Virus record (IMG/VR): IMGVR_UViG_3300008116_000054 | Location: 34,369 to 98,368 of that record | DNA length: 64,000 bases | Strand: one strand, 5' to 3' | DNA from: a virus | Part shown: positions 18,875 through 64,000 of the stretch, piece by piece | Layout of the letters: every line of letters starts with the position of its first letter | Position numbering within the stretch: the stretch's first letter is position 1 | Program-made: the position numbers and the translations under genes | The notes under the pieces: model-generated | Seen by the model: only the letters and a program-made list of their open reading frames with translations | The model's database searches: none | What the model was told of the DNA's origin: nothing

Positions 18875-20525
18875 CTGAACCTCTGTCAACGCTTAAGACC
18901 ATCTTCGCCTGACCCGCGTCGTAGATCTTGACCAAGCCAAGCTCTTTGGCGTACTCTTTCTGTGTCAATTTTCTCTCGTCCATGTTAGCCTTGCAGAACA
19001 GACGATTGTAGGTCTTGTCGTAGTCGGTCCACTTCCATCCCAGCGTGGTGCCGACGTGCACGAAGCCCATGTCCTTGAGCGAGGCGACGTCGCCGTACCG
19101 CAGGTCGACGAACGTGTAGATCTTATCTATATCGAACGTCTTTATAGCATACTTGAGCAGCTTGGAGTAACCGCCAACGACCACGGTGCTCAGCGCAGAA
19201 GCGAACCTTACTATTTTTACTTGACTGCCCTCGAACCTTAAGGAGAGCAGGACTTTTATCTGATCTACGTCCTTGAGGGCCAGATACACGGAAGCGGACG
19301 CGAACCCCATGAGATGGTTGGCCTTGAGGAAGGTCTTCGCCTCCGGTGCGGTCACTTGTCTTATATCAAGCTTCCTGGCATGGAGTTTATCTTTCACCGC
19401 GCCAGCCTTTACCGCTATCATAGAGTCGACGATCGACCGCTTGTAGATCACCTCGTCTGCCCTGAACTGCAGGAGCCTTAAGTTAAACTCTTCTGCTTTT
19501 AGCCTTGCCTTCAGGTGGTATTTCTTGTGTAATGTTTTGTCCGAGTGCCAGTATAGACCGTCGACGTTGACGTAGACGCGATCGGAGACCTTGAAGTCAG
19601 GTCTTATGTTGCATCCTTTTGCCGGGAACTTATCGAACCTTGATAACATAGGATTTGAGCTCATTAGCGTTTCTATGTCGCTCATGGTAAAGTGCTCTTC
19701 GACTAGGCTGATAAAATCGCTCTCCGTAGCTGGTAGGTGCTTGGCATAGATCTTGCACACGAACGAGTAGCTTATCTTGTCTGCGAAGTTGAGCTTCCAT
19801 ATATCTTTGATGGATCTTCCGTCTAAGCTCTTAGCTACGCCGATCTCTTGAAGTTTTCGTAGCCTATCCGCTGGATCCGCCTTTGTCCTTTTAGATCTCT
19901 TTCTCTCGTTTAGTCTTAATCTTCTTTCGGCTCTGGTCTCTTCTTTCTTCTTCAAGGCCTCAGGGCTAAGGAAGCGGGACCTGTTCTTGTCTATCGTCTC
20001 TGGCAGGAGCAGCGGAGTGGACACGCCGTACCGCTGGAGGTTCGTGCTCGCTATGTCGTGGTATTTTTCCTTTATCCTCTGACTCATCTTTGCCCTGAAG
20101 TCGTCTGTGGTGTGGGTCGACGCACGGCTGTCCGACAGCTTCTTAGACTTTCTTCCAGGATGAGACTGACCGTAGAAAGCAACCTTGTACACCGGAGCCC
20201 ACCACTCTCCGTGGTCTACGTCGATGAACTTGGCTTTCTTGTTGGAGGAAGAGTACGAGCTTGGGTCTATAAAAACTAGACCTTGATGGTTTGTATCGAG
20301 TGCGGCGATTATGTCCGCAAGCGATATCTTTCTTCTATTGGGGTGCTTTTGGCCGCATGTGACCACCTTCGTAGGCGTCGCCCACCACTCTCCGTGGTCT
20401 ACGTCGATGAACTTGGCTTTCTTGTTCATGCCGCAGAAGGTTGAGACGTCTATAGACACTAGGCCGCCGTGCTTCTCCAGCAGAAGCTGCCGTATCTTGT
20501 CTGGTGATGTCCTGACGTTAGACAA
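18867..20525 (-). CDS. Homing endonuclease, EDxHD type, paralogue 2, between split-intein halves
   Basis: 552 residues from the TTG at 20525, chosen because AAGGGG lies 6 bases upstream; the frame is open to 20570, but that part overlaps the promoter-like sequence. The N-terminus carries two DUF723-like DNA-binding repeats, each with KKAKFIDVDHGEWWA, 61 residues apart. The nuclease core has IRPDFKV, VNVDGLYWHS and LRLLQFRADE (Vsr-like, EDxHD). The C-terminal domain (ANHLMG, FVDLRYGD, LGWKWTD, YDAGQAK) matches the endonuclease at 4481. Its stop overlaps the IntC start (18867-18874). In known fractured genes this nuclease class sits between split-intein halves and probably cuts the uninterrupted allele. 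Confidence 0.85.
   Translation of the reverse strand: MSNVRTSPDKIRQLLLEKHGGLVSIDVSTFCGMNKKAKFIDVDHGEWWATPTKVVTCGQKHPNRRKISLADIIAALDTNHQGLVFIDPSSYSSSNKKAKFIDVDHGEWWAPVYKVAFYGQSHPGRKSKKLSDSRASTHTTDDFRAKMSQRIKEKYHDIASTNLQRYGVSTPLLLPETIDKNRSRFLSPEALKKKEETRAERRLRLNERKRSKRTKADPADRLRKLQEIGVAKSLDGRSIKDIWKLNFADKISYSFVCKIYAKHLPATESDFISLVEEHFTMSDIETLMSSNPMLSRFDKFPAKGCNIRPDFKVSDRVYVNVDGLYWHSDKTLHKKYHLKARLKAEEFNLRLLQFRADEVIYKRSIVDSMIAVKAGAVKDKLHARKLDIRQVTAPEAKTFLKANHLMGFASASVYLALKDVDQIKVLLSLRFEGSQVKIVRFASALSTVVVGGYSKLLKYAIKTFDIDKIYTFVDLRYGDVASLKDMGFVHVGTTLGWKWTDYDKTYNRLFCKANMDERKLTQKEYAKELGLVKIYDAGQAKMVLSVDRGSDG
20197..20243 (-). repeat. 47-bp perfect direct repeat, copy 1
   Basis: Identical to 20380-20426. 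The 183-bp period equals 61 codons, so both copies encode the same DUF723-like motif. Perfect identity, including third positions, implies recent duplication or gene conversion. Confidence 0.95.
20380..20426 (-). repeat. 47-bp perfect direct repeat, copy 2
   Basis: Second copy of the repeat at 20197-20243 inside the same endonuclease gene. The flanking sequence between copies is diverged. Confidence 0.95.
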
Positions 20526-20526
20526 T

Positions 20527-20556
20527 ATAATCCCCTTAGTGCCATAGGGATTATAC
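20527..20556 (-). promoter_or_regulatory. GTATAAT promoter-like site embedded in an inverted repeat
   Basis: ATAATCCC (20527-20534) and GGGATTAT (20547-20554) form a perfect 8-bp inverted repeat; the minus-strand -10-like GTATAAT (20550-20556) lies in one arm. This is an operator-like arrangement 25 bases upstream of the TTG start of the endonuclease. Confidence 0.5.
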
Positions 20557-20608
20557 CCGATATTTATCAATTAGCCTTGATTACGGTGCATTTTTTTTAC
20601 AAAGCAGC

Positions 20609-21406
20609 TCATGGACCAATCCACCCCCTTCCCAGAAGCCTACTGCACGATGCTATTGCTTGCTCCGTAGCAGTGTCACGCTTTGCGAAGTTCTCGTCTT
20701 TCCACATCGGGCTAAGGTTGGTGTAGTGCTGCAGCTTTATGAGCTCTTCTTCGTTCTGAGCCTGAGAACAAGGACATATGTGGTCGATGTGCCAGCTACC
20801 AAAGTTGTCCCACGACATCCCCGGCTGGAACAAGGACTCCAGGTGTCTTCTAACTCCCTCTATGTTGAGCCCCAACAGCTTCTCGGCCTTGTCGTTCTTC
20901 TTGTAGCGCCTGTTGATCGAGTTGGTTATCCTCACCCTTATGCCGCGCACGAAAGCCGTTTCTGGATCGAATATCTTCCAGTGTGAAAAACAAAGTTTAT
21001 GCTTGAAGGCATTGTTGTCGCATGAAGCATGGGAGCATTTCTTTTTAGGTTGCCTAATTCGCCACGCTTGATAATGCGTGCCACATAAGCCTTTTTTCTC
21101 AACCTTCTTTGTGCACCCAGAAATTGAGCACTCTGGGGCCTGTTTTAGTTTGTTGGCGTTGTAGTGCACAGAACAAAGCCCGTTGTGCTTTGCATTTTCT
21201 TTGCAGTCATATTCGGAGCATCTAGGTCGAGTTGCAAATCTATCTTTATCGTAATGGGACCTACACATGCCCCTGCGAAAGATAGAGGAACCACACTTGG
21301 TGCAGCCTTTATCTAGGCGGCATTCCTTGCACGTCGTGTAGACATTCTTGTAGAGAGGCTTCTGGCAGGATTCACAGTAGTCGGCTTTACGCTTTAACTT
21401 CTGCAT
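20609..21406 (-). CDS. HNH homing endonuclease with tandem zinc fingers, between split-intein halves
   Basis: 265 residues from ATG at 21406, which overlaps the stop of the terminase N-precursor by 20 bases; the in-frame upstream extension lies entirely inside that gene and is rejected. It has a CESCxK...CKEC pair and then four fingers: three with the spacing C-x4-C-x9-C-x2-H-Y/W (CSEYDC..., CSISGC..., CSHASC...) and one C-x2-C variant (CTKCG...). The HNH core has LFQPGMSWDNFG, WHIDHICPCSQ and NLSPMWKDENFAKRD. The same finger pattern appears once at the very N-terminus of the terminase. The HNH half is closely related to the gene at 10433. It probably targets the terminase locus. Confidence 0.85.
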   Translation of the reverse strand: MQKLKRKADYCESCQKPLYKNVYTTCKECRLDKGCTKCGSSIFRRGMCRSHYDKDRFATRPRCSEYDCKENAKHNGLCSVHYNANKLKQAPECSISGCTKKVEKKGLCGTHYQAWRIRQPKKKCSHASCDNNAFKHKLCFSHWKIFDPETAFVRGIRVRITNSINRRYKKNDKAEKLLGLNIEGVRRHLESLFQPGMSWDNFGSWHIDHICPCSQAQNEEELIKLQHYTNLSPMWKDENFAKRDTATEQAIASCSRLLGRGWIGP

Positions 21407-21686
21407 GCGCTCGCGTTGAGGTGCTTTCCAAGGATGAGATCTCGTCGGCGTCGGTGAGGTGCTGAAGCTCGATCCATCCGCGCTGGGTCCAGACTTTGTG
21501 GTCGAGGGTTCCTTCGATGACTCTTCCATCTTCTAGCTCTATCCTTATGCACTCGGCGTCTTCTAGCTCGTTGCCGAGGACCTCGACGAAGCCGGTGGTG
21601 TCTTTGATAAAATCGCCTGGCTTGAAATCTGCCAATGATCTTATTGTACCATGCACATCGGTTGACGTAGCGGAGGAAACCAGGCA
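21387..21686 (-). other. Split intein, N-terminal half (IntN, 99 aa)
   Basis: Residues 653-751 of the N-precursor. It begins Cys653 in CLVSSATSTDVHGTIRSL with ADFKPGDFI (block A) and has VIEGTLDHKVWTQRGWIEL (block B, with the T-x-x-H motif). It then ends after a short tail at the gene's own stop codon. There is no endonuclease domain and no block F/G, and the following gene is a different protein, so the intein is genuinely split. Confidence 0.9.
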
Positions 21687-23642
21687 CGCTCGCAGCGTGC
21701 ACGGGAGCACTTCAAGTGTGACTTTCTCACTCTTGATGTTGAACACTGACTTCTCCATCGTCATCTTCTCTAGGATCTTGTTCTCTTCGCTGACCTTCGG
21801 TGGGTTCACTATCGGCTTTATTCGGTCTGAAAGAAGGAATTTCTGCTGATACTCGTAGCATCGTTTTGCCTGAGAAAGGATCGCGCCCACGTGCACCACA
21901 TCGCGCTGATCGTGCATCAGCACTAGAAGCTCAGCTATGGCCATGCCGAGGGTGTTGTGGCTGATGAAGCCGTTCGACCAGTACGCGTGATCGACGTCTA
22001 CTTCAAGATCGTAGAAGTAATGTTTGCCAAAGGCAACTGAATCTACGGTCTCGTAACACCCCCTCCTGACGAAGGAAAGGTAGTCGGCCCAATCATATTC
22101 CTCTAGGCGTTTCGCTAGATCTATGAAATAATCGATCTTGTAACCGTAGACATAAAGCTCCTTAGCCTTCTCGCCAGATCCCCAAAGATCTTTAGAATAC
22201 TTTATATCGGAGTGGGTCTTTTTTCCCGCCTCGAGACGCCAGTATCCATTCGCGATCTCATACTTGTCTTTTATAAAAGATGCAAAGGGTTTCAACAATT
22301 TAGACGGATAGCGAAACTGCTCGTTCATCTTAGCGCTGTAGATCTTGAAGGCCTCGCGCTTAGAGAACAATGGCATCAAATATTCTGGTAGAGCGGTTTT
22401 ATAATCGACGCAGTGATACTCCACTACGTGGTCTTTAACAAACTTAGTTGTAGAAGGCTTGCGTCGTTTTTTGTTGATGACGGCATGAACACCGAATAAA
22501 TTCAAAATCTGAGCTATTTGTTTTATGAGCTCTGGATTGGCTAACGTTATCGAGTCTTTGGAGCCATCGGTCTCCATCATTCCAGATATAAAACCAGCCA
22601 GAAAACTTGGACTATGGTTCAATGTCTTCAGCTTTTTGAAATAGCAGAGTTCGCCCTCGATAATGGAGTCGCAGTATTCTCTTAAAGCCTTGCTACAGAT
22701 ACCAGCTATACTGAGATTTGGCGATCTTTTGTCATATTTCACTTTTGGTTCTACGCCAAAATGTTTGACTATAGTATCTATATATATTGCTAATTGATCT
22801 TTATCTTTTGCGGCAAAAGATATGGCATTATCAAAGCGACTAACAGAACCATCTCCGGTTATGCAGCCAACAAGCCATCCTAGTTCGTAATCGTTAGAAG
22901 ACGTGTCTACTAAGGCACCTAGTGACTCTAAGGACCTATAGATCAACTGGCCCGGAATAAGATTTTTCATGTAGACCCAGTCGATCTTGCCGGTCTCGGG
23001 GTCAAGGGCTTGAACACGATGCTTTAAGGAACCAGTCAAAGACCATGCGCCATCTTTGGTAAGATGTTTGGTAGTAATGGTTACGCCATCTTTAATGCCT
23101 TCGTCAAAAGTTTCGACCACGGGTTTCCAGGACCAGCCGGTCCAAACTAAATCGCCAACCTTAACGTTTTGTACATATTTGGTACCACTATTGGTAATGA
23201 TTACAGTATCTTGCGAAACGCACTTACCGCTGCCCCTTCCTGCAACATACAGTAATTCTTGGATATTTTGCGGATTGTTGTTGTTCGTGCATATGTCGTA
23301 CACGTCCCAAACTGCATGAAAAGGAGTGGTGTCTGCATACCTGGAGACCTTGCAGTCTGGCAGGTGTAGGTTGAAGAAGTACCGGATAAAGTTCTTGAGG
23401 TCTTTCTCCGTGCGGCACGGCGTTAGCAGTATACGCTCCAGCTGCTCTGGCGTAAACTTGGACGCGTTCTCTGAGATCTTGCGGTTTATCACCTCCTGGC
23501 GCGCAGCCTTGGTCTCCTCGATCTTCTTCTGCTTGATCTTTGGTCGGTCGATTATAGACTTATAGTGCCCGGTGCAGTAGCCTCTGGACTTCAACGGTTT
23601 GCTGCAGCCTTCTACGGTGCATGTCCTGTTCTTACTGTCCAT
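21387..23642 (-). CDS. Large terminase, N-terminal precursor: Walker A + contiguous intein + split-intein N half
   Basis: 751 residues. Residues 1-30 hold a zinc finger (C8, C13, C23, H26) not usual in terminases. ELLYVAGRGSGK (129-140) is the Walker A loop and is interrupted straight after its Lys by an intein (141-563); Thr564 resumes the host protein (TLGMAIAELLVL). Host residues 564-652 end LEVLPCTLRA. Residues 653-751 are the N half of a split intein. The partner half starts the gene at 16211, where the host reading resumes as C-NGPHVPLVVVDEID. Mature host content is 140 + 89 residues. The ATG overlaps the putative small terminase gene by 11 bases. Without both cis- and trans-splicing no ATPase can form. 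Confidence 0.9.
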   Translation of the reverse strand: MDSKNRTCTVEGCSKPLKSRGYCTGHYKSIIDRPKIKQKKIEETKAARQEVINRKISENASKFTPEQLERILLTPCRTEKDLKNFIRYFFNLHLPDCKVSRYADTTPFHAVWDVYDICTNNNNPQNIQELLYVAGRGSGKCVSQDTVIITNSGTKYVQNVKVGDLVWTGWSWKPVVETFDEGIKDGVTITTKHLTKDGAWSLTGSLKHRVQALDPETGKIDWVYMKNLIPGQLIYRSLESLGALVDTSSNDYELGWLVGCITGDGSVSRFDNAISFAAKDKDQLAIYIDTIVKHFGVEPKVKYDKRSPNLSIAGICSKALREYCDSIIEGELCYFKKLKTLNHSPSFLAGFISGMMETDGSKDSITLANPELIKQIAQILNLFGVHAVINKKRRKPSTTKFVKDHVVEYHCVDYKTALPEYLMPLFSKREAFKIYSAKMNEQFRYPSKLLKPFASFIKDKYEIANGYWRLEAGKKTHSDIKYSKDLWGSGEKAKELYVYGYKIDYFIDLAKRLEEYDWADYLSFVRRGCYETVDSVAFGKHYFYDLEVDVDHAYWSNGFISHNTLGMAIAELLVLMHDQRDVVHVGAILSQAKRCYEYQQKFLLSDRIKPIVNPPKVSEENKILEKMTMEKSVFNIKSEKVTLEVLPCTLRACLVSSATSTDVHGTIRSLADFKPGDFIKDTTGFVEVLGNELEDAECIRIELEDGRVIEGTLDHKVWTQRGWIELQHLTDADEISSLESTSTRAHAEVKA
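21954..23222 (-). other. Contiguous intein in terminase Walker A, with LAGLIDADG-type endonuclease
   Basis: 423 residues (141-563 of the N-precursor). CVSQDTVIITNSG is block A and TGSLKHRVQAL block B. LGWLVGCITGDGS and LAGFISGMMETDGS are the two LAGLIDADG helices. YDLEVDVDHAYWSNGFISHN is block F/G with a His-Asn end, followed by Thr564. It sits inside GRGSGK-T, the nucleotide-binding loop. Confidence 0.93.
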
Positions 23643-40744: not shown

Positions 40745-41493
40745 CAGAATCTTATCCCCAATGATAGGCCTGCTCTATCATTAGATATACCCCCTCTATC
40801 ATACGAGGCACCTACGTAGACAGGTCCCCAGAAGGTGTAATGGGTCTCTACAGTGTACTGTCTGTCGGTGTTGAGTCCTAGTCCTAGCGCAAACGGTCTA
40901 GGATTAGACGTCGTTCTCGATGTCTTCTCGCGCTCTTCCTTTAGCAGACTCTCGCTCTTGTTAAGCTCCAGCGAGAGCTTGTCGATCTTGGTCTGAAGAA
41001 CGGACGTCTTCTCGTTGAGCTCTCTGGCGTGCTCGAACTTGAGCTTAGACACTGTGTCCACGATCTTCTCCTCGGCCTCTCTCTGTATCTGAGCGATAAC
41101 TTGAGTCTCAGACTCGAGCTCGGAGGTCGAGATGGTCTTTCTTTCCACGGTGCCGTCTGGATGGACCTTCTCTACCGTGACCATCTTGGTCTTCTGCTTC
41201 AAGGAAGAGTTCTCGGTGGACAAAGAACTGATCCTCGTCGTAAGCTCTTGCTCACGCCTGAAAGATTCTTGCCTAACGGTCTCGATATCTTTCTGATGCG
41301 TCTCGCGCTCTTGCTTTAGGGTCTTCTCGGACTCTTGAAGCTTAGACTCATAAGATGCGCGAGTTTCATTAAGGATCTTTTCCTTCTCTACGATCGACGT
41401 CGATTCACTAGGATAGAGCAAGATCGTCATGGCGATGCCTGCAAAGAAGACTATGGCGTATCTAGCGTACTGGTTGTTTAGGATAGCAATCAT
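40744..41493 (-). CDS. Membrane-anchored coiled-coil protein, 249 aa
   Basis: One N-terminal transmembrane segment (YAIVFFAGIAMTILLY), then about 150 residues of coiled coil with TV/E/K heptads. The C-terminal 45 residues have alternating glycine/aromatic strands (ALGLGLN, THYTFWGPVYVGASY), similar to phage proteins predicted to sit in the envelope. It overlaps groEL by 4 bases. Spanin-like or membrane-organising roles are possible; no family assigned. Confidence 0.55.
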   Translation of the reverse strand: MIAILNNQYARYAIVFFAGIAMTILLYPSESTSIVEKEKILNETRASYESKLQESEKTLKQERETHQKDIETVRQESFRREQELTTRISSLSTENSSLKQKTKMVTVEKVHPDGTVERKTISTSELESETQVIAQIQREAEEKIVDTVSKLKFEHARELNEKTSVLQTKIDKLSLELNKSESLLKEEREKTSRTTSNPRPFALGLGLNTDRQYTVETHYTFWGPVYVGASYDRGGISNDRAGLSLGIRF

Positions 41494-43193
41494 TCTTCAC
41501 CCGTGTCGTTTAGCATGTCCTTGAACGCAGCCTTGCTGAGCTCCATCTGGGTCTCAAGGTTGTAGTCACGCGGCGCCACAACGATGCCGCCAAGCGTCAC
41601 CATCAGCGATGCCACCGATAACGCGTTTCCTATCGCCACGCGATGGACCTTCGCCGGCTCCACGATGCCTGCATCGAACGGATCGACGATCTCGTGCGCG
41701 CTTGCGTCAAACACGACCTTCGGCGTCCCGGACGTGCCCATGGACTCTCTGATGGCCGACGTAAGTTCAGCGTACCGGTCGTACTCGCCGCAGTTCGACA
41801 GAAGAACGCTGAAGGGTTTTTCTAGAGCATCGGCCAGTATCTCCCACGCCGGCGTCGGCTCTGATCGCCTGATGCGGTCGGCAAGAGCGATATGGGTCGC
41901 GCATCCGCCGGCGACTATGCCTTCTGCTACTGCAGATCTTACGGCCTCGACCGCGTCCTGAACGCGATCGCGACGCTCGCGGATCTCTGCGTCCGTGATG
42001 CCGCCTACCCATATAGTAGAGATACCGCCGGTTAATTTTGCGATGGCTGCACGAAGGTGTGCGCGGTCATGCTCAGAGTGTGCGGCGGCCATTATCGCCT
42101 TGAGCTCTGACACGCGCTCGTCGATGAGATCGGCGTCTGACTCGCACTGGATGAAGGTCTCGTATGTGTTCACTTTAGCAGATGTAAAGGCTCCGAAATG
42201 TTTCGTGTCGAAGCTTGCCGCAGTTGCAGGATCCATCACCGTGGCACCGGTGTAAGCTGCCATATCATGGAGGAACATGGTTCGTGAGTTTGCAAGAGTA
42301 GACTTGGGAACCTTTACCGGAAGAACCGTGACGCCTGACTTGGAGGTCTTTAGACATTTCTCGATCACTGGGTCTGCGAACCCGTGGGCCATGACGATGA
42401 TAGGCTTGCCGAAGAAGTCAGGATCTGACTCGCATGCTGTCTGGATCGCTGCCGGCAGAACCAGATCGTTGAGCGTGCCGTCAAAAAGCACTACCAGACC
42501 TGCGTCCATCCTGACCTGCTGGTTGGCGCGATCGTTGATGAAGACAGAGCCGATAGACCCTAGATCCTTGAGACCAGACGTCACGATGAAGCCGTCGACG
42601 GTCTCTACTCTCATACCGCCGCCTTGGTCCTCTTGGATGAGGATATGGCCGTCCTCGCCTGCCGCAAGGAAAGCCTTGACTACAACGCTTGCCACGTCGT
42701 GGTCGCCGTTTGCCGAGATCAGGGCCACACGCCTTAGATCGTCGTCTGACTTGACCTTGATCGAGACTTCGCTAAGGTAAGGAACGATGATCTTGTCGTA
42801 GCACTTGCGGAGCTCGTTTACTAAGCGCTGAGGATTGTATCGTGCGTTCCTCATCATGAAAAGAGATCCAGCCTTTACAATCGCATCCGCGAGAACGATC
42901 GCAGTAGTCGTGCCATCACCCGCATCTCGCGCTGTGTTAAGCGAAATCTCCTTGCAAGTGTCAAGAACTGTATTTGCTGCCGCATTAGGCATCCCCAGCG
43001 ATTTGATCACGGTCACGCCGTCCTTCGTCATAAGGGGAGGCATTCCCTCGCGTTCGATAAGAACAATAGTTCCGCCAGGGCCTAAGGTGCGACCCGCGAT
43101 GGCAGCCATACGAGACAACGTAGAAGTCACGATCTGCTGCAGCTGATCGCGATCGTCTATCATATCCTTAGACTTTGACTTTACGTACATCAT
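41490..43193 (-). CDS. GroEL-type chaperonin (phage-encoded)
   Basis: 567 residues aligned in feel with group I chaperonin along its full length: TLGPGG (36-41), MTKDGVTVIKS, ARDAGDGTTTAIVLA with the ATP motif GDGTTT (92-97), IVAGGCATHIALADRI, and ALSVASLMVTLGGIVV. The usual Gly-Gly-Met C-terminal tail is missing. No groES-like gene is visible here. Phage GroELs can fold phage capsid or other proteins, sometimes without a co-chaperonin. Overlap with the upstream methyltransferase-like gene (ATGATG) implies co-expression with dUTPase and neighbours. Confidence 0.9.
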   Translation of the reverse strand: MMYVKSKSKDMIDDRDQLQQIVTSTLSRMAAIAGRTLGPGGTIVLIEREGMPPLMTKDGVTVIKSLGMPNAAANTVLDTCKEISLNTARDAGDGTTTAIVLADAIVKAGSLFMMRNARYNPQRLVNELRKCYDKIIVPYLSEVSIKVKSDDDLRRVALISANGDHDVASVVVKAFLAAGEDGHILIQEDQGGGMRVETVDGFIVTSGLKDLGSIGSVFINDRANQQVRMDAGLVVLFDGTLNDLVLPAAIQTACESDPDFFGKPIIVMAHGFADPVIEKCLKTSKSGVTVLPVKVPKSTLANSRTMFLHDMAAYTGATVMDPATAASFDTKHFGAFTSAKVNTYETFIQCESDADLIDERVSELKAIMAAAHSEHDRAHLRAAIAKLTGGISTIWVGGITDAEIRERRDRVQDAVEAVRSAVAEGIVAGGCATHIALADRIRRSEPTPAWEILADALEKPFSVLLSNCGEYDRYAELTSAIRESMGTSGTPKVVFDASAHEIVDPFDAGIVEPAKVHRVAIGNALSVASLMVTLGGIVVAPRDYNLETQMELSKAAFKDMLNDTGEE

Positions 43194-44593: not shown

Positions 44594-46015
44594 TTATTCT
44601 ACGATCTTCACCTTGTCCGTTATCTCGAGGTAGTAGGAGATCCGCTGCTTTGCGTGTCTGGCGAGCATCGTCGATCCTTCTGGCACGTAGTCTAGGATGA
44701 TGCACTTGTCTTTGGTGGGTGTCTTTCTGAGGCCTCTGCCGACCGCTTGAAGCACGGCCGACTTAGACGCTGTGAAGTTTGCTACGACGAGGACCTCGAC
44801 GTTCCTCGTGTCGACGCCTTCGCCTACCAGACCATCGGTCGCGATAAGTGCCTTTATATTGCCGTCGTTGAAGTGCTGGATGTTTACTTCGGAGCCTTTG
44901 TCCCTGCCGTTCGCGAACGGGATGCCGAGCGCTGAGGAGATGATGTCGCCGTGCTCGATCTGATCGACCAGCACGAGCAGAAACTTTCCTGCAGTGTGGA
45001 AGGCTCTGCAGTCTGAGATGATCCTGTCGTTCATCTCCTTTGATTCTAGGACGTGGGCTCTGTATGACTTGAGCTTATCGTCTCTGAAGTCTTTCCCTAC
45101 CGTCTTCACCTTCCTGACTATGAAGTACGGATCAGACAGCCAGCCGTTCGCTACGCCCCAGGAGACATCGCGCTGCACGAGTATGTCGCCGCATGCTGCG
45201 TGTATGAAGATGTCTTTGCCGTCTGACCTGAAGGCGGTAGCCGTGAGTCCGTATATACGGCCCACGGCACCTAGTCCCTCGGCGATAGCATAGAAGGTGT
45301 TTGCGGGAGTGTGGTGGGTCTCGTCGAAGACTACAACGCCAAGGTTAAGGCCCTTGATGTCGTCGATGCGGTTACATACGGAAGCTGCTATGCCGACGGT
45401 CACTGTAGAGGGTTTATACTTACCGTCTCCTACGAACCCGACCTTGGACTTTCCAAAGGCCTCGACGAGCTCGCTGTGGAACTGTAAGGCTATTGATTTG
45501 CTTGGACAAACTACAAGTGTGTTGCGCTTCAGCTTTCTTATGAGGGCTATGGCGGTCTTGGTCTTGCCGAGCCCGGTTGCTAGGTTGATGATGCCGCGCC
45601 AGCTCTGGGATGCCAGCTCCACGGCCTCTTCCTGGTAGTCTCTGAGCTTCAAGGAATATGAGGCATTAGCCCACGGAAGCGAGACCTGAGGCCCGGTGTC
45701 TTGCCGGGTGTCGACGACGGTGTTGACTTTGCTTTTTACAAGATTCATGAATCCCGAAGGTATAAACAAAGAATCGTTTATCTTCTTGCAGAGATTTCCT
45801 TTAGACTCTTTCTGAAGCTGGGCGTACTGCTGAGACGCCTTGGCGTACGGGTTCTTCTGCATGCGCTTGAGCTGATACTCTTTGGACTTGTCGATATAGG
45901 AAAGCTCGGTCATGATATCCGATTCGATATCCGTTCGTGGGTTGTCTATGCGAATGATATCGTTAGTAACGTATGCGACCATATCTTCGTGATCGTTCGT
46001 ATAACCACCTTGCAT
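44594..46015 (-). CDS. SF2 DNA helicase (UvsW/RadD-like)
   Basis: 473 residues from ATG at 46015 (GGAG 7 bases upstream; the TTG 12 bases earlier overlaps that site). Walker A ATGLGKTKTA (146-155), DETHHT (Walker B, DExH), LTATAFR (motif III), a later GLVGEGVDTR and AVGRGLRK (motifs V and VI). Such helicases unwind recombination branches and R-loops; T4 UvsW is the functional analogue. The 120-residue N-terminal part is specific to this phage. Its start codon is 33 bases from the divergent 46049 gene. Confidence 0.88.
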   Translation of the reverse strand: MQGGYTNDHEDMVAYVTNDIIRIDNPRTDIESDIMTELSYIDKSKEYQLKRMQKNPYAKASQQYAQLQKESKGNLCKKINDSLFIPSGFMNLVKSKVNTVVDTRQDTGPQVSLPWANASYSLKLRDYQEEAVELASQSWRGIINLATGLGKTKTAIALIRKLKRNTLVVCPSKSIALQFHSELVEAFGKSKVGFVGDGKYKPSTVTVGIAASVCNRIDDIKGLNLGVVVFDETHHTPANTFYAIAEGLGAVGRIYGLTATAFRSDGKDIFIHAACGDILVQRDVSWGVANGWLSDPYFIVRKVKTVGKDFRDDKLKSYRAHVLESKEMNDRIISDCRAFHTAGKFLLVLVDQIEHGDIISSALGIPFANGRDKGSEVNIQHFNDGNIKALIATDGLVGEGVDTRNVEVLVVANFTASKSAVLQAVGRGLRKTPTKDKCIILDYVPEGSTMLARHAKQRISYYLEITDKVKIVE

Positions 46016-46324: not shown

Positions 46325-47218
46325 ATGAATGACATGAACATAGGATTTAAGAAATGTTTGATATGCAAGGTGGTTGCAGGAAGTTCTAAGAAAAAGAACG
46401 ACTGCATCTATGCGCACAAAGATCCTGACACAGGCGAGATCTGGCTGTGGTGTCAAGGTAAGTGTAAGCGTGGTTATTCGCTGTATGAATATTGCTCCCT
46501 GGCAGGGATTACTCTTAAAGACTTCCTTAAATCTAATATCACATTTGAAGAAGCTAAAGACATGGAAGTCTCTGCTATGGCGTGGCCGAGGTCTTTCGTT
46601 GCCCTATCTGACCCTAAGGCCGAGAGAGGCGTGGCCTACCTTAGGTCGCGCGGTCTGGTGTCTCCGCCTGAGATGTACTACGACACCGAGCGAGACGGCA
46701 TCGTTTTCCCGTACTACTACGAGAACACGTTCGTCGGCGCACAGATCAGGTTCATAACCCCTCGCAAGGACGAGGACGGAAACGACTGGAAGATCACCAC
46801 GCTTCCTGGTACAAGACTCGGGTACTTGTTCTGGAGCTGGTCTCAGCAGGTCATGAGTACGAACGTCAGGTACGTGGTCGTGGCCGAGGGTGCCATAAAC
46901 GCAGCCAGCATTCAGCAGTCCTTGAACCTAAGGTACGGTAACCTTATCAAGAATCCATATCGATGCATATCAACGTCAGGCGCAAGCGTATCAAAGTACC
47001 ACTCTGAAAAGCTCAGGGAGCTTATCGAATCAGGAACAAAGGTCGTGGCAGCATTCGACAACGACGAGGCAGGCATCAAGGCCTTCGAGAAGATGGCCGC
47101 AGCCGGAGCCTGCACCCACTACGCCTTCGTGAAAGAAGAGGGCGTAGACTGGAACGACATCCTGAAGGCGGGAGGCGATCCGGCGTCGCACCTTGCCGCT
47201 TCATTAAAGAAGGCTTGA
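46325..47218 (+). CDS. DNA primase (zinc finger + TOPRIM)
   Basis: 297 residues. Zinc-finger ligands C11, C14, C43, C47 (CLIC ... WCQGKC) are at the N-terminus. A TOPRIM fold follows, with VVVAEGAINAAS (Glu motif) and VVAAFDNDEAG (DxD motif). It is shorter than DnaG and closest in layout to the T7/T4-type split primases or primase halves. It is followed directly by the initiator-like and helicase genes, so a primosome module. Confidence 0.85.
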   Translation: MNDMNIGFKKCLICKVVAGSSKKKNDCIYAHKDPDTGEIWLWCQGKCKRGYSLYEYCSLAGITLKDFLKSNITFEEAKDMEVSAMAWPRSFVALSDPKAERGVAYLRSRGLVSPPEMYYDTERDGIVFPYYYENTFVGAQIRFITPRKDEDGNDWKITTLPGTRLGYLFWSWSQQVMSTNVRYVVVAEGAINAASIQQSLNLRYGNLIKNPYRCISTSGASVSKYHSEKLRELIESGTKVVAAFDNDEAGIKAFEKMAAAGACTHYAFVKEEGVDWNDILKAGGDPASHLAASLKKA

Positions 47219-47221
47219 TAT

Positions 47222-48124
47222 ATGAGATCTTTGCTTGCTAATGTTTTAGGCCAGACTTCATTTTGGCTTATAAACAAACATTTAGTCAAAACACTTGAAG
47301 GCAACTATAGCGCAGTCGTGCTGTTGTCGGATCTTATCCAAAGAAGAGAATATTTCGCTTCTCGAGGAGATCTGACTGAAGACGGATCTTTTTATGTGCT
47401 TTCTGAGACCATAGAAGAAGATCTTGCTATGGGAGCTCAGATGCGACGACGTGCCACAAAAGACCTTCAGGAAAAGGGTCTTGTATTGGTCCACTCTAAG
47501 CAAACTTCAGTTCCTTCTAAAGGAATACAAACAGTCAACTACTACTGCCTAAACGACGAAGCAATCATAGACATCCTGCAAGGAAACAAGGGGCGGGGGT
47601 TACAAAACACGACCACGGGGGTTACAAATCATGACCACGGGGGTTACAAAACTGGCACACAAATAAGAATAGAAGAAAAGAAAGAAGAGAAGACGAAATT
47701 TTCGCAGGAAGACATCTACCGGAGATGGCTAGCTGAGGTTCCTGAGAGACCAGACTTCAAGTCCTGCTACGATGAGCTCCTGGTTCTGTTCGAGTCCTTG
47801 AAGACCGCTGGCTTCTCCTCCGCCGAGATCTCACCTTCCTTCAAGAAGAAGATCCTGCGCCGCTGGGAGAGATCTAAGTTCCCGCAGCGCCACGAGGACT
47901 GGTGGGACAAAGCTCTAGGCGCGACGTTCAACGCTGACATCGAGCTTGCGGTTCCTGAGGTTCGAGAGGAACGGGGTGTAAAGGTATCGAAGATGGACGG
48001 GCAGATAACGATAGAGACCGCGCTCAAGATGGTGACAGACGACGACGTCATCGAGGAGATGATGCGGGAGCACGAGCGGATAATGTCTAGCGGACCTAGA
48101 CAAGGAGTGCTGGAAGATGAGTGA
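47222..48124 (+). CDS. Putative replication initiator/helicase loader (winged-helix N-terminus)
   Basis: 300 residues. Residues about 18-95 look like a winged helix (VVLLSDLIQRREYF, EDLAMGAQMRRRATKDLQEKGLVLVH), as in phage initiators. The middle carries the iteron DNA, translated in three different frames. The C-terminal part (DIYRRWLAEVPERPDFKSCY ... LRRWERSKFPQRHEDWW) resembles loader domains. The gene lies between primase and helicase, overlaps the helicase start, and contains a candidate origin, the same plan as lambda gene O. Function is inferred from these features. Confidence 0.6.
   Translation: MRSLLANVLGQTSFWLINKHLVKTLEGNYSAVVLLSDLIQRREYFASRGDLTEDGSFYVLSETIEEDLAMGAQMRRRATKDLQEKGLVLVHSKQTSVPSKGIQTVNYYCLNDEAIIDILQGNKGRGLQNTTTGVTNHDHGGYKTGTQIRIEEKKEEKTKFSQEDIYRRWLAEVPERPDFKSCYDELLVLFESLKTAGFSSAEISPSFKKKILRRWERSKFPQRHEDWWDKALGATFNADIELAVPEVREERGVKVSKMDGQITIETALKMVTDDDVIEEMMREHERIMSSGPRQGVLEDE
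47595..47660 (+). repeat. Three 22-bp tandem iterons, candidate replication origin
   Basis: Units 47595-47616, 47617-47638 and 47639-47660. Each starts GGGGGTTACAAA, and units 1 and 2 end GACCAC (unit 3 GGCACAC-like). The period of 22 is not a multiple of 3, so the protein sequence is not repeated; conservation is at DNA level. A purine-rich, A+T-rich stretch (47661-47702) follows, as expected for an unwinding element. Confidence 0.85.
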
Positions 48125-49172
48125 GCCTAAGATAAACTCAAAGGTCGAGCTTTTCGAGGCCAAGCAGGAACTCGAGAAGGCGAAGGTTCAGGAAGGCATC
48201 GCGAAGCTGAACCAGAAGAAAGCCTTGCAGGAAAGACTCGAGAACTACTCGCTTAGCGAGATCGAGGCCCGCAAAGGCTCGGGCAACGCCAAGCGCCTGG
48301 TCGGCATACTTGAGCGCGACGCGGACCTGATTCGTAAGGCGGTGCCTTTCATAAACTCTGCCCTGAGCACGGTATGCCCGCTGTGTCCGGGTGCCGTGTA
48401 CCTGATGGGTGCTGCCTCAGGCACGGGCAAGTCTACTACGACGGCCGCGATCGCACACGGGCTCTACGCGCAAGGCATGAGGTCCTTCATCGTCTCGAAC
48501 GAGGAGACGGAAGCAAAGATCATCGCGCGCGTGGCATGCGTGGACCTCGGCATCGACTTCAACCTCTACATCCAAGACAAACTACCGGCGAGCTTCAGGA
48601 AGCAGATCGCACACAAGATCCTGGAGATCGAGCCGTACGTCACGGTGATGGACGATCCCATAGCGAGCACGACGCTGGAGAAGATCGAGTCAATCCTCAA
48701 GGAGGTGAACGAGTCCGGCGCCTACCAGGCGGTCATCGTGGACTTCCTTCAGCGCATCAACAAGTCAGTGGTGGTGCCAGGCATCGAACGGACGGATGCC
48801 CTATACCGATTCAAGGATCTGATCACGGACTACGCACAGTACGCAAAGACTCCGGTGATAGTGATGACCCAGCTGATCCCGATATCGTCAGACGAGACAG
48901 AGAGAAACGTTGAGACGCGTATAAAGTGGGTTCGCGGGTTCTACGAGGCCGCCGCCGCCGTGATCGAGATCATAAAGGTCAAGGGCATACCGGTATCGAA
49001 CTTCTACGTGGCCAAAGGCCGCTTCTCAAAGGCTGAGGTCACCGTGTCCTGTCGGTACGAGAACGGCAGGTTCACGTACGTCTCAAAGAAGGAACTTCAG
49101 GAACTGAAGGATCAGGCCCAGATAGACGCGATAAACGACATGGTGTCGAAGATGGATGTTGAAGAGCCATGA
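48117..49172 (+). CDS. Replicative DNA helicase, DnaB/gp41-like RecA-fold ATPase
   Basis: 351 residues. A basic coiled-coil N-terminus (1-45) is followed by CPLCPG (87-92) and Walker A GAASGTGKST (98-107). Then NEETEAKIIARVACVDLGID and Walker B AVIVDFLQR are found, with VIVMTQL, the polar motif before the final arginine finger region. It is shorter than DnaB because the usual N-terminal primase-interacting domain is replaced by the coiled coil. It is inferred to unwind the fork with the primase at 46325. Overlaps its neighbours on both sides. Confidence 0.85.
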   Translation: MSEPKINSKVELFEAKQELEKAKVQEGIAKLNQKKALQERLENYSLSEIEARKGSGNAKRLVGILERDADLIRKAVPFINSALSTVCPLCPGAVYLMGAASGTGKSTTTAAIAHGLYAQGMRSFIVSNEETEAKIIARVACVDLGIDFNLYIQDKLPASFRKQIAHKILEIEPYVTVMDDPIASTTLEKIESILKEVNESGAYQAVIVDFLQRINKSVVVPGIERTDALYRFKDLITDYAQYAKTPVIVMTQLIPISSDETERNVETRIKWVRGFYEAAAAVIEIIKVKGIPVSNFYVAKGRFSKAEVTVSCRYENGRFTYVSKKELQELKDQAQIDAINDMVSKMDVEEP

Positions 49173-49870
49173 AGACTTGCACTAACTGTAAACTTGAAAA
49201 AGATCGTTCTGACTTTCATTGCTCTAGTAAAGCAAAAGACGGACTTCAAAATCAATGTAAAAAGTGCCGTAATATAAAAGCAAGTGAATATGTTAAAAAC
49301 AATAAACAAAGATACAAAGACCATCGCACAAAATGGATGGCGGAAAATCCGGAACGAGAAAGAGAAAATAAACGCTTAAGAAGATTAAGAAACAAAGGCA
49401 CTGATAAAGAAGAAAAGAGAAAGACTTACTCTCAAGAAGAGCGTAAAGAAATGTATGCAAGACGAGCTCAAGATCCTCAGTGGCTTGAGAAGAAAAGAAA
49501 CAGAGCAAGAGAGTTTGAGAGAAACAAGAGAAAGAATCTCTTAAAAAGGATTGAGAATCAGATTAGATGCCGTACGTCAATCGCAATAAAAGGCGGCTCT
49601 AAGCTAGGAAAGTATGAGCAGTATATAGGGTGCAGCACTGAAGATCTAAAGGCTCATCTTGAGGCTAAATTTAAGCCCGGTATGACGTGGGACAATTGGG
49701 GTAGAGAAGGCTGGCATATCGATCATATACTTCCAGTGTCAAGTTTCGATCTATCAAATCCTGATGAGTTTTTTAAAGCCTTTCATTATACCAATCTTCA
49801 GCCTCTGTGGGAGTCAGAGAATCTTTCCAAAGGAAGCAAAATATTATTAACACAAGGAGACGACGCATGA
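49169..49870 (+). CDS. HNH homing endonuclease behind the helicase gene
   Basis: 233 residues, more A+T-rich than its neighbours. Zinc ribbon CTNC at residues 4-7 and CKKC near 31, a long basic coiled stretch, then the HNH core YIGCSTEDLKAHLE, KPGMTWDNWG, WHIDHILPVSSF and NLQPLWESENLSK. Closest in the window to the HNH gene at 8868 (shared start and core). The start overlaps the helicase stop and its end overlaps the start of the lipoprotein gene, whose AAGGAG site lies inside it. Confidence 0.87.
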   Translation: MKTCTNCKLEKDRSDFHCSSKAKDGLQNQCKKCRNIKASEYVKNNKQRYKDHRTKWMAENPERERENKRLRRLRNKGTDKEEKRKTYSQEERKEMYARRAQDPQWLEKKRNRAREFERNKRKNLLKRIENQIRCRTSIAIKGGSKLGKYEQYIGCSTEDLKAHLEAKFKPGMTWDNWGREGWHIDHILPVSSFDLSNPDEFFKAFHYTNLQPLWESENLSKGSKILLTQGDDA

Positions 49871-50055
49871 GAGTTCTTACGATGGCTTTTGCTCTTGCCT
49901 TGACCGGATGTGCGACCAGCCCTTGGTCGAGGATGACCGATAGGGTGGTCGATAACGGCCTCTCTAGGTTCGACGACAGGAACAGAGACACGACGTGCTA
50001 CGTGTACCGCGACAGCGACGGGAGCAGCATCTCGTGCATCAGGATCGACAGATGA
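49867..50055 (+). CDS. Small lipoprotein, 62 aa
   Basis: MRVLTMAFALALTGCATS is a lipoprotein signal with lipobox LTGC (Cys15 mature N-terminus). AAGGAG lies 8 bases upstream of the ATG. The mature part is charged and serine-rich with two further cysteines. It could be an outer-membrane component such as an o-spanin or a host-surface modifier; too short to classify. It supports a Gram-negative host. Confidence 0.7.
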   Translation: MRVLTMAFALALTGCATSPWSRMTDRVVDNGLSRFDDRNRDTTCYVYRDSDGSSISCIRIDR

Positions 50056-50402
50056 AGAGTACGCCCCGCGAGCTCGTGCAGGCCATGATCCGAAGGCGCG
50101 TCTCCAAGGCGCGGTCGGACAGACCCCAGCATCCAGAAGAGTCCGTGCGCGACGTGTGCCTGCGGTTCTTGAAGGAGTTCGACGACGAGCTCTCTAGGAC
50201 CAAGAGCGCGGTCGCACGCTATTTCTTGATCCAGGAGAAGCCGGACGTGCTGGTCAAGCAGCTGATGAGGTTCGATCCTGCCGTGACGGTCGAGATGGAG
50301 TGGTTCGGCGAGGAGATCGAGGACCTTAGGCTCGAGGGACTTCGGGTCGTCATCCGGGGTGAGACAATAACCGTAAGCGTCGTAGACGTGATGTTCGAGT
50401 AG
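50052..50402 (+). CDS. Unknown protein, 116 aa
   Basis: ATG at 50052 overlaps the lipoprotein stop (ATGA); the upstream extension of the frame is rejected. Helical N-terminal two-thirds (VRDVCLRFLKEFDDELSRTK), short beta C-terminus (GLRVVIRGETITVSVVDV). No family recognised. Confidence 0.55.
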   Translation: MKSTPRELVQAMIRRRVSKARSDRPQHPEESVRDVCLRFLKEFDDELSRTKSAVARYFLIQEKPDVLVKQLMRFDPAVTVEMEWFGEEIEDLRLEGLRVVIRGETITVSVVDVMFE

Positions 50403-50407
50403 AAGAC

Positions 50408-50731
50408 ATGCCTATAATCATACCGGTCTTTTCCATAGCGATCGTTCTTGCCGTATACTGGTGGTACTGCAGCATCGTGTTCGGCGGCGGCAGCGTCTGG
50501 CTCGGGCTCGCGGCCGCGCTGACCATGAACCTGATCTGGATCCTTCTTGCTAGATGGCTCGAGCGCGCCAGCTGGATATCGTTCTACGGTGTCGCCTGGG
50601 AGCTCGGGCTCGTCATCATAACGGCGGCGTACCCGTACCTCGTGCGGGGGATGTCGGTGAACTGGATGTTCTGGCTCGGTATCGGCTTGGCCATCGCAGC
50701 GGTGATATCGATGTACATGGGCGTCGAGTAG
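50408..50731 (+). CDS. Integral membrane protein with four segments, 107 aa
   Basis: Hydrophobic segments at about 3-20, 28-47, 57-75 and 84-104 (PIIIPVFSIAIVLAVYW, LAAALTMNLIWILLA, ISFYGVAWELGLVIITAA, MFWLGIGLAIAAVISMY). Little outside the membrane. Small multi-pass phage membrane proteins next to a lipoprotein can be holins, but no lysozyme gene is in view, so this is only a possibility. Confidence 0.6.
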   Translation: MPIIIPVFSIAIVLAVYWWYCSIVFGGGSVWLGLAAALTMNLIWILLARWLERASWISFYGVAWELGLVIITAAYPYLVRGMSVNWMFWLGIGLAIAAVISMYMGVE

Positions 50732-50761
50732 AATATCGCCCAGACAGACCAGGAGAACATC

Positions 50762-51094
50762 GTGGCTAGACACCCGAAAGTGAAGCGCGGCAGAAAACCC
50801 AGCGGCTTTCCGTCGCGCGTGCTCGTATACGGGCATGCCGTGGAGATCATCTACTGCCACGAGATGCCGAAGGGGTACGTAGACACGTTCGGCGTCACGT
50901 ACCACAACGAGAAGCGGATCTACATCAACCTGGATCAGCCTAGAGACGAGATGGAGCGCACGGTGTTCCACGAGATCTGTCACATGGTCTTGTTCCTCAG
51001 CGGTCACAAGTACGCGATGGAGGACGGCCAGGAAGAGGCGGTTATAAGGGCATTGGAGCACGGGCTCCTTCCACTTTACAGGAGGAAGAGATGA
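50762..51094 (+). CDS. Small zinc metallopeptidase-like protein (HExxH), 110 aa
   Basis: The start is GTG with AGGAG upstream. TVFHEICHMVLFLSGHKY contains HEICH (HExxH) and is followed 20 residues later by QEEAVIRALEHGL, which can supply the third ligand, as in ImmA/IrrE- or SprT-like small peptidases. The basic N-terminus (HPKVKRGRKPSG) may bind nucleic acid. Possible targets are host regulators; not assignable. Confidence 0.65.
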   Translation: MARHPKVKRGRKPSGFPSRVLVYGHAVEIIYCHEMPKGYVDTFGVTYHNEKRIYINLDQPRDEMERTVFHEICHMVLFLSGHKYAMEDGQEEAVIRALEHGLLPLYRRKR

Positions 51095-51534
51095 AAACTC
51101 TGCTTATCGCGATAGTCATGCTCCTTGCAACCGAGGCGCAGGCTCGGTACCTGGATCTCGACAGGTTCTCTCTGAAGCTTATGCAGTTCACGTGCAACCG
51201 CGAGATGCTGACGCCCGACATCCCGTGCGATCAGTACCGCGGCAGGATCGCGACCGACTTCGACCTCTCGTTCCTGAGGAACGGATTCTGGCGCAACCAG
51301 ATCCACGGTGAAGGAACGTACTCGAAGTTCATGACGGTAGGATGGAGGTACGAGGTCGGCTTCAGGATCGGTCAGTTCGAGCTGTTTCACGAGCACCACT
51401 CGCGGCACGTGATGGAGCAGGAGATGCCCGACTACTGGGATCGGGCATACCAGCAGCCGATGCAGCAGAACTTTCCCGTGGAAGACTCGTACGGTGTGCG
51501 GATAATTTTGTACGAGAAAAGAAAAGGACCCTGA
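51091..51534 (+). CDS. Secreted protein, 147 aa, unknown
   Basis: MKTLLIAIVMLLATEAQA is a Sec signal peptide, with cleavage expected after AQA. The mature part is beta-rich (YSKFMTVGWRYEVGFRIGQF) and contains FELFHEHHSRHV and two cysteines. Last gene of the plus-strand block, ending at the bidirectional terminator. Probably periplasmic or outer-membrane; no family recognised. Confidence 0.6.
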   Translation: MKTLLIAIVMLLATEAQARYLDLDRFSLKLMQFTCNREMLTPDIPCDQYRGRIATDFDLSFLRNGFWRNQIHGEGTYSKFMTVGWRYEVGFRIGQFELFHEHHSRHVMEQEMPDYWDRAYQQPMQQNFPVEDSYGVRIILYEKRKGP

Positions 51535-62484: not shown

Positions 62485-64000
62485 TTACAGACCTGCTAGC
62501 GCTATAACCATAGCCTGATCGCGCTCGATCCTGTACTCGAGCACGTCTCCCGTAACATAAGGATCGTCTATCGTTGCCAAAAGATCGATCTGGTTGGACT
62601 GTGTTCCCGCAGATCCGACCTCGTTGTAGTCGAGCCCAGCCTTGAGTTTCTGGCCGTTCAGCCACACCGTAAGCATGGCGTCTCCGACTGTGTAGTAGCG
62701 GATCGCACTTCCGGCCCTTGAATCGACCGGCAGGGTGACCGTCTGGGTTGCTGTGTAGTCTGCTGCAAGAGTATCAGACTCCAGATAGACGTTCGATGCC
62801 ACGCCTACTAGACTAGGCTTGAACGTCATCTCGTCTGTTCCTGTGGCGACGCCGATTATCATTATCGCTTGCCCGTAGGTGTTAGGCTTAGACGTCGTGA
62901 GTCCGCCTGCTACACTTGGAGAGAGATAAACCGGTTGCCCTGGCGTAAACGACGAACCCGGTATCGTTACGATGCCGGAGGTGAGAACCAAGCCAGGATC
63001 TCCGTCGTTGATGATAGCGTACGCGATGCCGACGATCTTTGCTGAATTCGCAAGATCCGAGGCAGATGCCAGAACGATCTCGCCTGCTACTGCACCGGCC
63101 GCTACAACGCTTCCTGCTGCTATCGCAGATCCGGTGTTGTTTGTGAACTGAGACAATAAGTTAGGAACGCCTGATACGACGAGTTGATTGCCTTGGATCT
63201 GTAAGGTGACGCCGTCGACGGCGACGCTTAAGCCGTTGGTCCCAGTGACTATCGCCCCTGCAGCGTCAAGCTTTGCACCGAGCTGATTGCTGCCGTCGAT
63301 CTGAAGTGTGGGGTTTGTAGCCTCAAGCTGAACCTTGATGCCGTCTGTGTCTGTGACTATGGAACCTGTAGCGTCTAGCTTAACGCCTAGCTCGTTGCTG
63401 CCGTTGATCTCTAGCGTAGGATCTGTAGCTTCGAGCTGAACCAGTATCCCAGACGCGTCAGTTACGATCGCTCCTGCTGGGTCTAGCTTAACGCCTAATT
63501 CGTTGCTGCCGTTGATCTCTAAGGTAGGATCTGTGGCTTCGAGTTGGACCGCGATACCGTTCATGCCGACCACGACCGCGCCGACCGGATCGACCTTTGC
63601 CTGAAGCTTTCCAGAGTCGAACTCAAGACCAGGCGTTGCCGAAAGATCCACGGATATTGTATCGACTAAGATGTCGATGCCGTCGCCGCCGACTAAAAAA
63701 GAAGCTGGATTTGTTATGGATTCTGTGATGTCGATAGATGAAGGCGAGAAACTAGGCCGCTCATGGATGAGATGTCCTGACGTGTCGACCCATAAGCCGT
63801 TGTTTGCCGGATTCAAAGGATTCGACGCGGTAGGCGTGAACTCAAGCCCTAGAGGGTCGATGACACCCGTTACGCCCAAATCACCGTTGAGTTGAAGGGC
63901 CTTGTATCCGGCGCTCGCGTTGATCGTGACCGGAGTTCCGTCGTCGATGGTGATGTTCGCGCCCATGTCGTACGCTTGCTGCAGCGTGGTCGTTGTCCCT
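62485..64000 (-). CDS. Tail fibre with 36-residue repeats, 5' end beyond window
   Basis: Open without a stop to base 64000; the ATG at 63966 is internal to recognisable fibre sequence (TLQQAYDMGANITIDDG), so the true start probably lies outside. At least 505 residues. Residues 140-247 (counted from that ATG) are three copies of a 36-residue beta-repeat. After them comes a GGLTTSKPNTYGQAIMIIGVA surface-type segment, and the C-terminus (MLTVWLNGQKLKAGLDYNEV, LEYRIERDQAMVIA) is a fibre-cap type domain. Confidence 0.75.
   Translation of the reverse strand, partial: GTTTTLQQAYDMGANITIDDGTPVTINASAGYKALQLNGDLGVTGVIDPLGLEFTPTASNPLNPANNGLWVDTSGHLIHERPSFSPSSIDITESITNPASFLVGGDGIDILVDTISVDLSATPGLEFDSGKLQAKVDPVGAVVVGMNGIAVQLEATDPTLEINGSNELGVKLDPAGAIVTDASGILVQLEATDPTLEINGSNELGVKLDATGSIVTDTDGIKVQLEATNPTLQIDGSNQLGAKLDAAGAIVTGTNGLSVAVDGVTLQIQGNQLVVSGVPNLLSQFTNNTGSAIAAGSVVAAGAVAGEIVLASASDLANSAKIVGIAYAIINDGDPGLVLTSGIVTIPGSSFTPGQPVYLSPSVAGGLTTSKPNTYGQAIMIIGVATGTDEMTFKPSLVGVASNVYLESDTLAADYTATQTVTLPVDSRAGSAIRYYTVGDAMLTVWLNGQKLKAGLDYNEVGSAGTQSNQIDLLATIDDPYVTGDVLEYRIERDQAMVIALAGL
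63226..63549 (-). repeat. Three 108-bp tandem repeats in a fibre gene
   Basis: Each unit encodes VQLEATDPTLEINGSNELG or a close variant followed by a KLD..G.IVT. segment, 36 residues in all. A diverged fourth unit precedes them (to about 63657). They are typical of shaft repeats in trimeric fibres, where copy number sets length. Confidence 0.9.

Follow-up and report, generated by a model that had tools for sequence, protein, structure and literature searches.

A candidate replication origin within the initiator gene of a large phage that encodes its own DnaE-type polymerase

The stretch of viral DNA analysed here, which we call the window, is 64,000 nucleotides long and corresponds to positions 34369-98368 of a linear virus record of 108,514 b (108.5 kb). 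Two IMG/VR contigs are 99.9% identical to the record over the region. One of them is 134,893 b long and the record is linear, so the record is incomplete and the genome must be at least that long. Within the window, replication genes form a plus-strand island (46325-51534), and the other long genes lie mostly on the minus strand. The features that concern us, in window coordinates, are as follows.

46325-47218, plus strand: TOPRIM primase gene (297 aa), the first in a little replication operon; Pfam Toprim_2 (1.4e-9) and PHROG 239, DNA primase/helicase (7.4e-15)
47222-48124, plus strand: winged-helix initiator gene (300 aa) with the candidate origin inside it; PHROG 428, PHROG 186 and structure matches to phage replication proteins
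47270-47584, plus strand: winged-helix domain, residues 17-121; AlphaFold2 block with pLDDT of about 70-90
47594-47615, plus strand: unit 1, 22 bp; core GGGGGTTACAAA at 47595-47606; gene offset 372 nt, frame 0
47616-47637, plus strand: unit 2, 22 bp; core at 47617-47628; gene offset 394 nt, frame 1
47638-47659, plus strand: unit 3, 22 bp; core at 47639-47650; gene offset 416 nt, frame 2
about 47660-47707, plus strand: A/purine-rich tail, a candidate DNA unwinding element, singled out by composition, instability and codons unchanged in a relative
48117-49172, plus strand: DnaB-like helicase gene (351 aa), its product likely loaded at the origin; Pfam DnaB_C (5.9e-12) and PHROG 19 (1e-15)

The winged-helix gene thus sits between primase and helicase, as a first-pass annotation of the sequence had placed it. 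An endonuclease VII / HNH-type gene (49169-49870) directly follows the helicase gene.

The portal is related to those of SPO1-type phages, and the phage encodes a DnaE-type polymerase, a helicase, a primase and an SSB; the first-pass annotation had named a bacterial-type polymerase. The same annotation called the phage large and virulent. No tyrosine integrase was found in the record, which agrees with virulence but does not prove it for a linear and incomplete sequence; we regard a virulent lifestyle as likely and a temperate one as unlikely. Elsewhere in the window, the large terminase (16211-23642) appears to be split or interrupted: genes for homing/HNH endonucleases, together with intein-like inserts, lie both between and inside its pieces. 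A GroEL-like chaperonin of 567 aa is encoded at 41490-43193 (PHROG 5725, 1.8e-95).

The product of 47222-48124 matches PHROG 428 (replication initiation protein, 1.3e-5) and PHROG 186 (DnaD-like helicase loader, 1.2e-4) weakly, and the protein of a relative described below matches the initiator family more strongly (1.1e-7). AlphaFold2 models a fairly confident winged helix over approximately residues 17-121, with low confidence after residue 122. Fold comparison returned the replication protein of Lactobacillus phage Ld17 (4.6e-7), phage replication initiators and a putative replication protein O (9.5e-4), while matches to PDB folds were marginal and included a plasmid-type initiator, a Rep-DNA complex and DnaD. 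The weak Pfam matches are to transcription-type winged helices (TFIIE_alpha). Phage_rep_O (PF04492) is absent among the Pfam matches up to E=1, so the protein would work like lambda O without being filed in that family. Taken together, the weak PHROG matches, the modelled winged helix and the fold matches identify the gene as one coding for a DNA-binding replication initiator.

Directly behind the winged-helix domain, in DNA that codes for a linker, an array begins at codon 125. It consists of three head-to-tail 22-bp units with 100, 91 and 82% identity to the first, and occupies 47594-47659, which agrees with the earlier description of three tandem units inside the gene; the location given there, 47595-47702, needs only a small correction, since the array starts at 47594. 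The units are translated in three frames, as GRGLQN, GVTNH and GGYKTG, and the core GGGGGTTACAAA accordingly reads as GLQN, GVTN and GGYK. With one mismatch allowed, GGGGGTTACAAA occurs three times in the window, where shuffled sequences lead us to expect 0.08 occurrences and none of 100 shuffles reaches three. The 9-mer GGTTACAAA is found at these three places and nowhere else in the 108,514-b record. In a scan of the record for clusters of at least three 10-mers, the 22-bp units were the only multi-frame cluster. All other clusters have spacings divisible by 3, as in protein repeats, which makes this array the exception. A tandem repeat with a period of 108 bp (2.7 copies), located at 63243-63534 within a large gene, is likewise a protein repeat, its period being divisible by 3.

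We found no dyad symmetry in the units (best score 0-2). The measure is coarse: lambda iterons 3 and 1 score 7 and 4, but two other lambda iterons score only 1. Units that lack a dyad would fit binding to direct repeats of the kind seen in iteron plasmids.

The DNA behind the units has an unusual composition, as the first-pass annotation had recognised in describing a purine- and A+T-rich segment. The next 45 nt are approximately 80% purine, within the top 0.2% of the window on either strand, and 71-73% A+T, within the top 1-1.5%. The least stable 50-nt stretch at the tail ranks among the weakest 1.8% of stretches of that length in the record. In make-up the tail resembles the 50 nt that follow the final iteron of lambda, with an A content of 56% in both.

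The analysis turned up a single true relative, the 20-kb contig L007/L013, which encodes a protein with 74% identity; searches with the helicase and the primase as queries returned no further close relatives. In L007 all three units are present and their spacing is unaltered. Across codons 125-159, 28 of the 30 degenerate codons that encode the same residue in both phages are identical, compared to 48 of 94 over the remainder of the aligned initiator gene (p=1e-5). Adding the primase gives 180 of 313 elsewhere (p = 3e-5), and the segment with the units is the best of 430 sliding windows in this synonymous-codon test. All three cores are unchanged, whereas the spacers differ in codons as well as in the encoded amino acids (T to V, N to K, D to E, H to G). 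Constraint on the tail is stricter still, with 12 of 12 scorable codons identical and nearly all letters kept. A 6.3-kb DNA alignment with L007 is 72% identical, and its longest stretch without a mismatch covers the 44 nt at 47638-47681. At the 104-nt scale, however, 47595-47698 ties for most conserved with 45297-45400 in an upstream helicase gene (both 91%). Raw identity by itself would therefore not single out the segment; what sets it apart is the synonymous-codon test across the primase and initiator genes.

This comparison bears on an argument made earlier, that because 22 is not divisible by 3 selection must act on the DNA. The period is insufficient as proof, since a recent duplication would give the same picture. 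It is the relative that argues for selection at the DNA level, because the cores are kept while the spacers change. In other words, units conserved despite codon changes, which had been suggested as a check, are what the one relative compared shows, and DNA-level constraint on cores and tail is supported by that comparison. More distant members of the family, such as Fpv5, have no such array. Another gene of the same winged-helix family (L019:5983-6849) has, at the equivalent position, approximately two copies of a 23-bp repeat that is unrelated.

How common is this layout? A scan for lambda-O-like genes yielded 80 loci, 48 of them non-redundant, and we counted an array where a 10-mer recurred at least three times inside the gene with at most one mismatch and a spacing of 14-40 nt. 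Arrays occur in 31 of the 48 genes and in none of 77 neighbouring ORFs (p=2e-17). Synonymous shuffling of the same 48 genes is the fairer control, as the neighbouring ORFs are shorter on average, and it leaves an array in one (p=1.4e-11). The k-mer detector is conservative, given that lambda itself has only two copies by this measure. Unit spacings in the surveyed arrays peak at 23-24 nt and, once four doubtful cases are removed, 25 of the 27 that remain span more than one frame. The 60 nt behind the arrays contain 51% A, compared to 31% in the gene, and 64% A+T, compared to 52%; the corresponding values in the present phage are 53% and 67%. By these sequence comparisons, the combination of winged helix, multi-frame units and A-rich tail is common, with the present phage one case of it.

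Searching by DNA alone, for three copies of TTACAAA 22 bp apart, returned 17 stretches in viral contigs besides the phage and L007. Five of the 17 (L026, L027, L031, L035 and L038) have the units directed to the same place, downstream of the DNA that codes for the DNA-binding part, in genes whose products match other families of phage initiators. A 20-bp spacing gave seven viral stretches, none in an ORF of 110 aa or more, although these numbers are too small to establish that 22 is special. Bacterial genomes, often Bacteroidales, contain at least 119 stretches with the 22-bp spacing (L039-L157); they are mostly outside long ORFs, and an initiator gene was recognised at none of them among the matches listed. 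We therefore rejected the TTACAAA motif alone as a marker of origins. By the measure used, Phage_rep_org_N (PF09681) genes from Firmicutes mostly have no clear multi-frame array, and the SPO1 genes beside its helicase have no such array. A gammaproteobacterial O-like gene (L165:1462-2502) contains five GACACCAAA units in several frames; the units have inverted symmetry, and three of them are spaced at 22-23 bp.

Given the DNA-level conservation and the comparison with other phages, we consider it very probable that the units and tail form an intragenic replication origin of the lambda/SPP1 type, at which binding by the initiator and origin activity are predicted. Alternatively, the winged-helix protein may bind the units, but these serve chiefly as an autoregulatory operator, or as a site of copy-number control, in the operon, with replication starting elsewhere. 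Winged-helix proteins are often transcription regulators, the weak Pfam matches are to winged helices of the transcription type, and GC skew over the whole 108.5-kb record has no minimum at the site and so gives no origin signal there. Counter to this, the site lies approximately 370 nt inside the gene, a promoter scan around the operon finds matches no more numerous than in shuffles, an operator would have no obvious use for the conserved A-rich tail, and the proven cases of the same layout are origins. We regard a mainly regulatory site as unlikely.

A second possibility, that chance or recent slippage duplication produced the array without any DNA function, draws on the fact that the segment codes for a predicted disordered stretch, where duplications are tolerated. 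This would leave unexplained why cores and tail are preserved in L007 although spacers and residues are not, and why the layout recurs in many initiator genes and not in their neighbours; moreover, a three-copy cluster arises in none of 200 synonymous-codon shuffles of gene 47222-48124. We think this explanation very unlikely. Least probable of all is that the conserved element works as RNA, controlling translation from within the mRNA, or as a DNA site of a different kind, for example in packaging or recombination: the RNA fold of the segment is slightly better than that of shuffled sequences (z=-2.17, with 6 of 200 shuffles doing as well), but the fold is weak, with pairing mostly between repeat copies and a largely unpaired tail, an Rfam search of the segment gave no match, identical direct repeats point to protein binding, and the terminase genes are some 25 kb or more away.

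If the segment is an origin, initiation may proceed as follows. The winged-helix product of 47222-48124 would bind the three 22-bp units in the linker-coding part of its own gene. Several bound copies, spaced approximately two helical turns apart, would wrap or bend the DNA and open the adjoining A/purine-rich tail. The phage DnaB-like helicase and TOPRIM primase would then be loaded on the opened strand, perhaps via the C-terminal part of the initiator, and the phage DnaE-type polymerase may extend from the opened origin. The steps beyond the conserved units, the winged helix and the soft tail are those that we infer from lambda (PMC5043065, PMC7466680) and SPP1 (PMC6316719).

Intragenic origins are already a known kind, including in a lytic phage (SPP1). 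What is new is the setting, with an SPO1-like portal and the phage's own DnaE-type polymerase, helicase, primase and SSB; the lack of dyad symmetry in the units is unusual too. More tentatively, and with somewhat less confidence than doubt, we suggest that in a large SPO1-like lytic phage a lambda/SPP1-type origin with direct iterons that lack a dyad starts up a bacterial-type replisome encoded almost entirely by the phage (initiator, DnaB-like helicase, TOPRIM primase, SSB and DnaE-type polymerase). If this is true, a phage with such a replisome would start theta replication with little help from its host. The probable origin itself extends initiation on the lambda plan outside lambda-like phages, alongside a phage-encoded DnaE-type polymerase. 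The locus offers a precise and testable candidate origin for a large uncultured phage. The survey further suggests that many lambda-O-like genes could be read directly for their origin, by a simple mapping rule: look immediately downstream of the winged-helix region for units that are spread over several frames and followed by an A-rich tail.

Intragenic origins have been established experimentally in lambda and Stx phages (PMC7466680), in SPP1 (PMC6316719) and in TP901-1 and Tuc2009 (PMC8965321). The first-pass annotation saw here the plan of lambda ori in gene O. That likeness holds for units in several frames behind a winged helix, for the A-rich tail and for a layout shared with the 31 O-like genes, but not for the dyad of the lambda iterons. 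As in lambda, repeated initiator sites lie mid-gene and are followed by an A- and purine-rich stretch (PMC7466680), in a protein with the same winged-helix/linker layout. Lambda has four iterons and Stx six, which annotation gives as 18-bp sites spaced by 20-24 bp; they have inverted symmetry and are bound by dimers of O, whereas the present phage has three direct 22-bp repeats. The lambda protein belongs to Phage_rep_O (PF04492), which ours does not match, and its gene adjoins that of a P-type helicase loader, whereas here the next gene encodes a DnaB-like helicase.

SPP1 is similar in being lytic, in carrying direct repeats and an A+T-rich unwinding element within the gene for its origin-binding protein (oriL in gene 38) and in having its own DnaB-family helicase, gp40 (PMC6316719). 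It differs in its second origin, oriR, and its separate loader, gp39, whereas no loader was identified here, and in using host polymerases and primase, whereas here the primase and the DnaE-type polymerase are phage-encoded. In TP901-1 (ORF13) and Tuc2009 (Rep2009) a replisome organizer likewise binds direct repeats in its own gene, which constitute the ori (PMC8965321). These lactococcal phages are temperate members of the P335 group, whereas the present phage is likely to be virulent.

The iterons of plasmids generally lie outside the rep gene, whereas the units described here are inside the gene for the initiator. In other respects iteron plasmid origins are alike: their repeats are mostly direct, keep phase with the DNA helix and adjoin an A+T-rich region (PMC5043065). 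Our protein has weak fold matches to a plasmid initiator and a Rep-DNA complex.
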